Shown in pieces: positions 39,711 through 44,654 of a DNA stretch of 64,000 bases. Within the stretch, counting starts at the first letter, position 1. Each line of letters begins with the position of its first letter. A model generated the notes under the pieces. It worked only from the letters and a program-made list of their open reading frames with translations. It did no database searches and had not been told where the DNA came from. The DNA comes from Halobacteriales archaeon QS_4_69_225 (GTDB lineage: Archaea > Halobacteriota > Halobacteria > Halobacteriales > Haloarculaceae): assembly GCA_003020965.1 (NCBI GenBank), contig PXRL01000014.1:1-64000 (forward strand), written 5' to 3'. The position numbers and the translations under genes are program-made.

Positions 39711-39978
39711 GTGCCGCCGCCCGTTCGTGTCTCCCTACGAGCCGAAGCGGGTGCTCGCCTGGCGCCTCCGGCCGCGCCGGGGCTCCCGTTCCGGGAGCCG
39801 ATAGGTCGTCGGCCAACGTTTCGTGCAAGCCGTCGAGCGGCATCGCCGAGCCCCAGTAGCCCGCCTCAGAAGTCGTGTCGCCAGCTCGTCCGCGCGAGTG
39901 ATATAGGATGCGTTCAGGCCCGTCAACATCCTCCTCGACGGCCTCACGCTCTGCTCGCTCGGCAGCCCCCGGCCAGAA

Positions 39979-40060
39979 TCTACGCCTGCCGTGACAATAA
40001 TCAGACCACCGCAGAGACGCCGTTTGCCGTCGAAACGGAGGCCTCCGCACTCACGACTCG
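39979..40060 (+). repeat. Degenerate direct repeat, copy 1
   Basis: ctacgcctgccgtgacaata..gagacgccgtttgccgtcgaaacggaggcctccgcactcacgactcg. Confidence 0.7.
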
Positions 40061-40075
40061 AGACGTGTCAATGTC

Positions 40076-40468
40076 TCAGTACGTCTCGACGTCGACTCCG
40101 AGCGCCGTGAAGTCCTCGACGTTGTCGGTGAGGACGGGTTCGTCGTAAATGTCGGAGACTGCCGCGACCATCGGATCGACCTTGTCGATGCTGCTTTCGC
40201 CGTCGGCTCGCTGGTCCGCCCGTGCGAGGAGCTGTCCGGCGCGGTGAGCGATCGTCTCGTCCTGTTCGACGACCGGGTACATCCGAAGCGCGTTCTCGAC
40301 GTTCCTCCGTTCGTCCTCGTCGCCGAACTCGGCACCGTACGAGAGTTCCACGACGACCGGTGACGGAACCCGCTGAACGGTGTTCGTTTCGGAGAGCTTG
40401 ATGCCTCTCTCGAAGGCACCCTCGCGACCGTCGAAGAAATCGATCAGAAACGACGTATCGAGGATCAC
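40076..40468 (-). CDS. PIN-domain toxin (VapC-like)
   Basis: MILDTSFLIDFFDGREGAFERG..VVELSYGAEF..DKVDPMVAAVSDIYDEPVLTDNVEDF. Confidence 0.9.
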   Translation of the reverse strand: MILDTSFLIDFFDGREGAFERGIKLSETNTVQRVPSPVVVELSYGAEFGDEDERRNVENALRMYPVVEQDETIAHRAGQLLARADQRADGESSIDKVDPMVAAVSDIYDEPVLTDNVEDFTALGVDVETY

Positions 40469-40695
40469 TCGAACCGCTCCCAGAGCTCGTGTTTCGCTTC
40501 GGCATCGGTCTCGTGCGCGCCTTCGAGACGATCCCGCATGGCCGTCGCCGTTTCCGACGAGAGTATCCCGGCGACATCCTCGGGACGAGGTCCCCCGATG
40601 AGCCGGCGGAGCGTCTCCTCCATCGTCTCGTCCTCGTGCTTGTGAGCCGTCACGAACTCGTGGAACTCCTCGGAGATACGGACCGACTTGCTCAT
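40465..40695 (-). CDS. VapB-like antitoxin
   Basis: MSKSVRISEEFHEFVTAHKHEDETMEETLRRLIGG; overlaps toxin start. Confidence 0.88.
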   Translation of the reverse strand: MSKSVRISEEFHEFVTAHKHEDETMEETLRRLIGGPRPEDVAGILSSETATAMRDRLEGAHETDAEAKHELWERFE

Positions 40696-40805
40696 GTACT
40701 GTATACTCGGGTATACGTACCTATCAATTTTCGGCTGCTGTCCGGAGTGTCATTCTCTCTGTCAGACAACCATCTTCGGTCCGGCGCGGCGAGCGGGGGC
40801 TGGGC

Positions 40806-40896
40806 TGACCGGGGCCTATGTCTACCGTGGCAACGATCGGATACGCTCGGAGACGTTACTTACCGTCAAAATGGAGGCCTCGGCACTCACGACTCG
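40806..40896 (+). repeat. Degenerate direct repeat, copy 2
   Basis: tgaccggggcctatgtctaccgtggcaacga..gagacgttacttaccgtcaaaatggaggcctcggcactcacgactcg. Confidence 0.75.
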
Positions 40897-41014
40897 CAAT
40901 CTATCCATAGTGAATGTGTTTAGCGCGGCTATAGAGCCCTCTCGTTTCGTTACTGCTTCTCCAGGATTCGGGTGCTGCCTCCTCCATCTCGTTGCCTGCC
41001 GCGCTGTCGAATGA

Positions 41015-41338
41015 TCAGCAGTAGTGAATACTGCGGTCGTTTACGGAACGTGCTTCGAGGTGTGCGTCGACCGTTTTCACGACATCCCCAATGTCACGCC
41101 CGGCCTGTTGAATGTAGACGATTCCGGCGTGCTCGAAGCCGGATCCTTCGACGAGTGAGAGGAAGTCGTCGTCGAACGTTACCAGAATCCAGTCGTTCTC
41201 GACTGCGTACGAGAGGTGTTCCCGGTCGGAATCGCCCAATCGCTCCTCGTCACGAGCTGTGAGGACGGCCCAGCCGCGACGGCGGAGTCCGTCCGCGACC
41301 GGGATCCAGATACTCTCGTCACAGTATAGCGGTCTCAT
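41015..41338 (-). CDS. DUF5615 PIN-like toxin
   Basis: YCDESIWIPVADGLRRRGWAVLTARDEERLGDSDREHLSYAVENDWILVTFDDDFL. Confidence 0.88.
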   Translation of the reverse strand: MRPLYCDESIWIPVADGLRRRGWAVLTARDEERLGDSDREHLSYAVENDWILVTFDDDFLSLVEGSGFEHAGIVYIQQAGRDIGDVVKTVDAHLEARSVNDRSIHYC

Positions 41339-41559
41339 GCCGTGGCAGGCCCGGCGGATCGGAAGTCGTCGATGTTGTCGTAGTAGTACGCGAGCGCACG
41401 ATGGACCTCACCGAGCGAGAGGTCCGGATACAGCTGTGTGATCTCGTCGGGTTCGTACCCGCTGTGCTCGTACGCGACAGCGACGTCTTCCACCCGAATC
41501 CCGGTCCCCTCGATGGTCGGGGCACCGTCACTGTGCTCGGGGTCCCGAACGATACTCAT
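41335..41559 (-). CDS. DUF433 antitoxin
   Basis: GAPTIEGTGIRVEDVAVAYEHSGYEPDEITQLYPDLSLGEVHRALAYYYDN. Confidence 0.9.
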   Translation of the reverse strand: MSIVRDPEHSDGAPTIEGTGIRVEDVAVAYEHSGYEPDEITQLYPDLSLGEVHRALAYYYDNIDDFRSAGPATA

Positions 41560-41607
41560 AGATGCCTCTTCGCGCTCTATCGGTAATAAAATCGTGGTCG
41601 GTTAGGA

Positions 41608-41706
41608 TCTGACCGGGGGCTCTGTCTACCGTGGCCACGAATAGATGGCCCTTAGAGACGCCGTCTACCGTCAAAAACGGCGGCCTCGGCACTCATAGGG
41701 CTCGTC
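41608..41706 (+). repeat. Degenerate direct repeat, copy 3
   Basis: tctgaccgggggctctgtctaccgtggccacga..gagacgccgtctaccgtcaaaaacggcggcctcggcactca. Confidence 0.75.
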
Positions 41707-41788
41707 ACCGCCGGGTGCCTACGCCGGCTCGGCCCGGTGGGTCGTCATCGGCCGCCCGTCGCTACGGCGGCGGCGGGCAAGTGCATTG

Positions 41789-42169
41789 TCACTCCTCGTC
41801 GCCGGACTCGACAAATCCGAGTTCCTCGCCGACGCCGAGGACGTCCAGCTGCCGGAGGAACTCGTCGTCTGTGGGATCCAGCGGCAGGTCGGTGTTTTCG
41901 AGATCCAGCAGCATCCGGTCGTCGCCGGTGTCGACCAGCAGGTCGCCGTCGGTGACCTCGCCGACGATGTCGTCGCTGGACTCGACGGCGTCCTGGAGCA
42001 GTTCGCCCAGCGACCGGCCGGTCTCCTGGGCCTCCTGCAGCAGGTCGGCGACGACGTCCGGCGCCGAGGAGGGCTCCTCGACGGCCTGCTGGAGCAGTTC
42101 GCCGAGCGTCTGGCCGGTGTCCTGGAGTTCGGACTGCAGCTCCTCGAAGAGTTCTTCTGCGTCGGTCAT
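41789..42169 (-). CDS. Acidic helical hypothetical protein with internal repeat
   Basis: MTDAEELFEELQSELQDTGQTLGELLQQAVEE / LLQEAQETGRSLGELLQDAVESS. Confidence 0.65.
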   Translation of the reverse strand: MTDAEELFEELQSELQDTGQTLGELLQQAVEEPSSAPDVVADLLQEAQETGRSLGELLQDAVESSDDIVGEVTDGDLLVDTGDDRMLLDLENTDLPLDPTDDEFLRQLDVLGVGEELGFVESGDEE

Positions 42170-43189: not shown

Positions 43190-43480
43190 GTAAACTACCC
43201 CGCCCTACTCGCTCCCTTCCGCCTTGCGGCGGTCGGTCACTCCTTGAGGGCGGGGCTTTTCCCGCAACGCAATTGTGCCCCGCGACCCCGTGTGGTTCGA
43301 GAGAGCGAAGCTCTCTCGTCATCACGAAAGGCGCTTCGCGCCTTTCGAACGACATGGGCGCGGCCCAGCTTTCTCTTGCCGTTCCACGGGGGAGGCGGCG
43401 GGTCGGAGCAGTGCTGCGACCCGCGCTTACCGGACCTGTGCCGTGGATTGTCCCGCCGGTTTAATTGCCGGTGTTCTCGC
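43190..43480 (-). mobile_element. Remnant of IS200/IS605-group (IS1341/TnpB-type) element right end
   Basis: Minus strand ..gccccgccctcaaggagtga..gagtagggcggggtagttta; 9-bp perfect stem 43198-43206/43247-43255; minus frame ends SPALKE*; no intact tnpB. Confidence 0.4.
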
Positions 43481-43998: not shown

Positions 43999-44313
43999 AT
44001 GGCTGGAACAGGCTTCACATCGGGCTCTGATGGCGCGATGCCGCAGATCGTAAAAACAGAGGACGTCCTTGGTGGCGATCCCCGTATCGAGGACCACCGC
44101 ATCGGCGTCTATCAGGTCTATCAGCAATACGTGGAGGGCGACGAAACGCCCGAAGCAATCGCGACCAGCTACGACATCTCCATTGCCAAGGTTCACGCCG
44201 CCCTCGCCTACGCCTTCAGCAATTCCGACGAGATGCGTGAGATTGAGGCCCGAAATCAGGCAGTCGCCGAAGAAACGGCGGCCAACCGTATCGTCCCCAA
44301 CGATCGTGCCTGA
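43999..44313 (+). CDS. DUF433 antitoxin
   Basis: GGDPRIEDHRIGVYQVYQQYVEGDETPEAIATSYDISIAKVHAALAYAFSN. Confidence 0.9.
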   Translation: MAGTGFTSGSDGAMPQIVKTEDVLGGDPRIEDHRIGVYQVYQQYVEGDETPEAIATSYDISIAKVHAALAYAFSNSDEMREIEARNQAVAEETAANRIVPNDRA

Positions 44314-44321
44314 CCCCATCG

Positions 44322-44654
44322 ATGGACCTGCTTGCTGACGAAAACGTCGAGACAGAGTGGGTCCAGGCGCTCCGCGACGATGGCCACGACGTCAGTCGTG
44401 TCGTCGACGTTGAAGAGCTCGGTGCGAGTGCGACTGACCCGAACGTCCTCGCGGGGGCAACCCAGCGAAATCGAGTCCTCCTGACGGCGGACCAGTCCGA
44501 TTTCAGCGACCCATCGACCGACGATCATCCCGGCGTCATCATCGTCGCTGACGTCACTCGGACGGGCGGCCAGGTTCGGCGTGCAGTCCGGCAGATTGAA
44601 CAGTCAGTATTTGATCTTTCCGGCCACATCGCGTACGTCAGCGACTGGCTCTGA
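44322..44654 (+). CDS. DUF5615 PIN-like toxin
   Basis: MDLLADENVETEWVQALRDDGHDVSRVVDVEELGASATDPNVLAGATQRNRVLLTADQSDF. Confidence 0.9.
   Translation: MDLLADENVETEWVQALRDDGHDVSRVVDVEELGASATDPNVLAGATQRNRVLLTADQSDFSDPSTDDHPGVIIVADVTRTGGQVRRAVRQIEQSVFDLSGHIAYVSDWL

Follow-up and report, generated by a model that had tools for sequence, protein, structure and literature searches.

Our analysis suggests that the three direct repeats in the window, the first 64,000 nt of contig PXRL01000014.1 of Halobacteriales archaeon QS_4_69_225, bound a tandem array of small, non-autonomous toxin-antitoxin (TA) cassettes, which probably are moved in trans by a tyrosine integrase specific for the C/D-box guide RNA gene sR-tMet. 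An earlier note on this DNA had described three similar segments in the same orientation, and the description holds. In a whole-genome search, copy 2 matches copy 3 at 78% identity (E 7e-12) and copy 1 at 74% (E 4e-8), and beyond these two only short matches were returned (E >= 0.27). Copies 1 and 2 align without gaps over 81 nt with 60/81 identical positions (74%), against 42/81 in the best of 100 shuffles; they lie 836 bp apart, and copy 3 follows 804-806 bp beyond (Table 1). The repeat is composed of a ~70-nt arm followed by a 14-bp core, GGCCTCGGCACTCA, and in most cases by a ~20-nt left end. The core, given in plus-strand reading and strongly conserved in all three repeats, is the final 14 nt of the sR-tMet gene; therefore, the repeat corresponds to the 3' end of the RNA gene plus ~70 nt beyond it. 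Copy 3, whose full match extends from 41609 to 41704, overlaps this 3' end, which the first reading had overlooked. The repeats look like attachment sites of elements integrating into sR-tMet. The alternative offered in the earlier note, a duplicated and decayed end of a protein gene, was rejected: most copies have a broken EASALT frame, only 14 of 43 keeping it open, and the distance from the start of a copy to its core varies (77-83 nt). The repeat does duplicate a gene end, but the gene is that of an RNA, sR-tMet; attachment sites commonly have such an origin.

Table 1. Features of the cassette array in the window (plus-strand coordinates).
Feature	Position	Strand	Evidence and remarks
NTase-type remnant of a third cassette	39797..40053	-	Mostly deleted; right end is copy 1; tblastn and blastn against L052
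Copy 1, arm diverged	39972..40069	+	Arm 39972-40039, core 40040-40053, left end from 40054; hmm4-101, 65.6 bits
TA cassette, VapBC type	40054..40889	-	836 bp between cores; units of this type from three other genomes measure 835-837 bp
VapC-like PIN toxin	40076..40468	-	PF01850 E 3e-9, above cut-off
VapB-like antitoxin	40465..40695	-	PF02697 E 3e-4, below cut-off
Copy 2, internal att site	40805..40905	+	Arm 40805-40875, core 40876-40889, left end from 40890; hmm1-101, 96.7 bits
TA cassette, DUF433/DUF5615 type	40890..41695	-	Core to core 806 bp; same type elsewhere 802-806 bp (one 743)
DUF5615 PIN-like protein, putative toxin	41015..41338	-	PF18480 E 3e-15
DUF433 protein, putative antitoxin	41335..41559	-	PF04255 E 6e-15
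Copy 3, attL-type site	41609..41695	+	Arm 41609-41681, core 41682-41695, then remaining sR-tMet; profile match hmm1-94, 79 bits
sR-tMet C/D-box guide RNA gene, 3' end the putative integration target (attB)	41682..41753	-	Rfam RF02163, 80.2 bits (gathering 50), E 5e-15

The guide segment of sR-tMet matches the anticodon loop of the genome's own tRNA-Met(CAT). The 11-mer GCACTCATAGG occurs twice in this genome: one site lies in sR-tMet and the other at the anticodon loop of a tRNA-Met(CAT) gene with an intron, which fits a guide directed at that tRNA; ARAGORN calls a tRNA-Met at the second site with its intron setting and no tRNA without introns. The gene was detected in 128 of 146 genomes of the family, and most other loci likewise have it at the end of the array. 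Cassettes or att copies in L098 (5912-6851, G056), L118 (5523-6394), L129 and L046 have no detected sR-tMet adjoining them and are possibly secondary integration sites. The sequence GGATAGAAAGCT, upstream of the sRNA, was considered as the native flank, but it proved to be the right arm of a different element class, and this reading was abandoned. In the 3' flanks of sR-tMet in L133-L172 and L173-L193, several other arm types recur at the same gene end; some of them come with an integrase class of their own, namely beta, gamma, and one whose integrase lies next to the sRNA. Several element families therefore use the sR-tMet site as a hotspot.

The two gene pairs between the repeats are those proposed in the earlier note. 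A PIN toxin beside a small antitoxin gene, the layout of type II VapBC, lies between copies 1 and 2, with the antitoxin (VAPB_antitox) below the Pfam cut-off; a DUF5615/DUF433 pair with matches to both Pfam families lies between copies 2 and 3. The spacing, put at ~837 and 805 bp with one TA module per interval, measures 836 and 806 bp from core to core. Unnoticed at first reading was the remnant to the left of copy 1. It retains 83% identity over 24 aa in tblastn (20/24 residues identical to L052, at 39796-39867) and 79-86% in blastn to the intact nucleotidyltransferase (NTase) cassette of L052, which occupies the corresponding place in a same-genus genome with the same left neighbours. Therefore, the window array once held at least three cassettes, the outermost of which is decaying. 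A search for plasmid copies of the array returned only partial TA or left-end matches. Elsewhere in the window, a second DUF433 gene with a small adjoining gene resembling a DUF5615 partner lies at 44038-44654 on the plus strand, with no att copy found beside it. A sub-threshold match to the DUF3800-X RNA family (32.7 bits, gathering 38.2) lies at 43197-43258 on the minus strand, and a 74-nt direct repeat (41981-42150, 77%) is an internal duplication in a conserved array neighbour, the gene at 41789-42169.

The repeat is widespread in haloarchaea. It is present in 22 of 40 relatives, in 56 of 146 family genomes, and in 64 of 293 genomes sampled from the order, covering 36 of 87 genera, in a comparison set with one genome per species. 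The locus set is partly draft or MAG sequence, and outside the window genes were called with a simple codon model. The aligned copies are of three kinds, arm-core-sRNA, arm-core-left end and host flank-core-left end, which are the forms predicted for attL, an internal site and attR. One border of an element rebuilds the gene end, and the other joins the host flank to core and left end. When units are counted as stretches shorter than 1.4 kb between consecutive sites with left end and arm, all 29 of them (23 loci) hold a TA locus with one or more TA genes, which favours the cassette idea of the earlier note. The units fall into five types, and their sizes are quantised by type: 16 of the 18 type C units, with a RelB-like antitoxin (weak NCBIfam match) and a PIN-like toxin (weak Pfam match), measure 918-922 bp, VapBC units 835-837 bp, DUF433/DUF5615 units 743, 802, 805 and 806 bp, the PemK/MazF unit 899 bp, and the nucleotidyltransferase-like units 1261 and 1312 bp. 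TA matches inside units all have the same orientation (95/95). Toxin matches number 31 in 23.6 kb inside units and 9 in 622.5 kb outside, several of the nine adjoining a decayed or cut unit; this contrast is partly circular: although the repeat served to select the loci, the TA query proteins were taken from them. In addition, the order of units differs between loci (A-433 in the window, C-A-433 in L106, A-C in L095, C-433 in L059, 433-C in L048), which also speaks for cassettes.

The cargo is not always TA, and longer units at the sR-tMet site carry other genes. A unit in L125 (7514-8990, G151) has a rhodopsin gene (PF01036, E 5e-47) and no TA pair, that of L058 has a carotenoid oxygenase fragment (PF03055), and those of L100, L104 and L105 have S66 peptidases, on the basis of the L094 homologue. 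A similar-looking gene lies near the att copy in L046. In L062 (5744-6257, G032), a copy of core and left end directly adjoins a CRISPR array, near a gene that is also present in the integrase element of Natrinema gari.

The TA units contain no cognate integrase and are therefore called non-autonomous; they keep their att sites and are without integration and transfer genes, as cis-mobilizable elements (CIMEs) are. They could be decayed larger integrase elements in which only TA genes and att sites are left and which are no longer mobile themselves. Decay and accretion have precedents (PMC5704250, PMC3146451), and decayed units do exist at the left end of the window array, in L043 and in L118. 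However, independent decay would not give near-identical sizes across many genera, as in type C, and the same unit is found in different neighbourhoods and genera. We consider this origin unlikely. A tree of 21 type-C units shows no signal of host genus in these sequences: the genus label changes 13 times, against a shuffled mean of 13.2 and a least possible value of 8. One unit from the genus of the window is the sister of one from another genus, with 100/99 support.

Empty sites in other genomes are clean, which further favours cassettes. After removal of the single type-C unit of L096, the joined flanks match L140 over 901 nt at 96.9% with one gap, so that this locus reads as a precise insertion of 921 bp. 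Joined flanks also match for the 10,797-bp integrase element of L094 against L104 (900 nt, 97.4%), for the 1,505-bp unit of L104 against L151 (900 nt, 85.9%), and for the 1,028-bp unit of L114 against L158 (568 nt, 85%). Among the genomes compared, none has an empty site for the window's own array. The cores at the two borders of a unit can differ. In L096, the host AGCC is kept at the distal border and the cassette GGCC is now in the sRNA gene; in L045, the distal core is CTCGGCACTCA and that on the sRNA side CTCTGCACTCA. These differences would place the exchange to the right of core position 7, within GCACTCA, which is the guide segment adjoining box D.

These borders bear on two further explanations. 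Homologous recombination between resident repeats might have enlarged the array with no integrase now involved, which would suit the ~100 bp repeats in every unit and a window genome where no integrase was found. It leaves unexplained both the hybrid cores and the clean single insertion at a repeat-free site (L096 against L140), and as an account of the array we regard it as very unlikely, though it could still add to reshuffling. Alternatively, the units might be a transposon or MITE family whose core is a target duplication, being small and non-autonomous, with ends that are conserved and borders that carry a short direct repeat. Unlike a target duplication, though, the two border cores of one unit can differ; insertion in these loci keeps returning to the same few bp of a single gene, units at random sites with a target duplication of their own were not seen, and tyrosine-integrase elements have the same end. 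The probability of this second explanation seems to us very small.

The proposed mobilisation in trans draws on larger elements (~11-19 kb) at the same site, which encode a tyrosine integrase (PF00589, E 1e-27) with a small partner gene upstream. The integrase is present in 14 of 146 family genomes and lies within 10 kb of sR-tMet in 11 of these 14. Class alpha includes the elements in Haloarcula argentinensis (10.8 kb), in Natrinema gari (19 kb) and in Halopiger goleimassiliensis (11 kb), and its elements carry genes of defence type: DUF262-like, Mrr-type nuclease and methyltransferase genes. They have the left end CGACTCACAATCTATCCATAG and the core in common with the TA cassettes, whereas the long arms differ; classes beta and gamma have other left ends and the same core. 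Because only left end and core are common, cross-mobilisation is something we infer, and the class-alpha integrase may not act on TA cassettes. A further point against movement in trans is that integrase genes are rarer than att copies (56 of 146 genomes), and that the window's own genome, which is 89% complete, yielded none of the sR-tMet type. The best model for the integrase is an archaeal XerA-type, with a score just below the cut-off, and one relative, at 64.5%, is on a plasmid. A viral origin was considered and rejected, as viral_contigs holds no relatives and phage records reach only about 22-28% identity.

In the mechanism we favour, a cassette consists of a TA operon flanked by a left end of ~20-60 nt and by a ~70-nt arm, which finishes with a copy of the 14 nt that close sR-tMet. 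An integrase from a larger element of the same family would recombine a circular cassette, whose attP would read arm-core-left end, with the 3' end of sR-tMet as attB. Strand exchange would take place within GCACTCA, the 7-bp guide segment for pairing with the anticodon loop of tRNA-Met. Box D and the terminal stem of the RNA would be rebuilt from the copy that the arriving cassette brings, so that the site would survive; the next cassette would dock beside the RNA gene and push the older ones outward. In addition, the T-run of the arm, just downstream of the sRNA on the sense strand, could act as its terminator. Because the guide segment must pair with the anticodon loop of tRNA-Met, it would not easily change, and the position of the exchange in this segment suggests a reason for the stability of the site. 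If the TA pairs are active, addiction would allow such tiny elements to persist without an integrase of their own.

It has long been asked how chromosomal TA modules move and why genomes keep them. The ~0.8-kb unit bounded by att sites, which many haloarchaeal genera show as absent, present or in another order and for which candidate integrases can be named, offers a concrete vehicle. Our results also add a C/D-box guide RNA gene to the integration hotspots, and the integrase, together with its att pair, might be developed into a genetic tool for work on haloarchaea.

The array invites comparison with integron cassettes, including archaeal ones (PMC9668308), which likewise form shuffled arrays of small cassettes between recombination sites. 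An integron-like system with folded attC sites would account for single-function cassettes between repeated sites and for a tyrosine recombinase. However, the three window copies have no RYYYAAC or GTTRRRY boxes and no hairpin: folding shows no excess (z between -0.7 and 1.1). The integrase scores 66 bits with the integrase_gron model, against a cut-off of 265, the sites are a host RNA gene end plus an arm, and type C and DUF433 units have, by eye, T/A-rich promoter-like stretches of their own. Membership in true integrons is therefore exceedingly improbable. A broader idea, on which we are evenly divided, is that haloarchaea have assembled an integron-like system from other parts: a standing class of minimal TA cassettes, an sR-tMet-specific tyrosine integrase acting in trans, docking at a constrained guide segment, and persistence driven by addiction.

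Closer parallels come from islands that stack at gene ends. In Dehalococcoides, islands stack in tandem at the 3' end of the small RNA gene ssrA, each carrying a direct repeat of the gene end and many lacking integration genes (PMC3146451). Those are large islands with dehalogenase cargo, a serine recombinase and the tmRNA gene as target, whereas here the integrase is of the tyrosine type, the target is a C/D-box guide RNA gene, and the units are of fixed size, ~0.8 kb, with a single TA. CIMEs are likewise att-bounded, lack recombination genes and stack beside elements that have them; they are described as decayed larger elements (PMC5704250), while the size and layout of the units here are constant across genera. 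Archaeal elements at tRNA genes also use a tyrosine recombinase and a short core at the end of an RNA gene, which the element rebuilds, and the review that describes these targets does not contain the word sRNA (PMC8371274). Here, the target is a guide RNA for tRNA-Met modification, and the units lack an integrase. In the open-licence literature, phrase searches for C/D sRNA, which depend on wording, returned no report of sR-tMet or another C/D sRNA gene as an integration site, and no report of att-bounded TA cassettes in archaea was found. As far as that literature allows us to judge, two things set this array apart from the known systems: a C/D-box sRNA gene as target, and single-TA units of fixed size.
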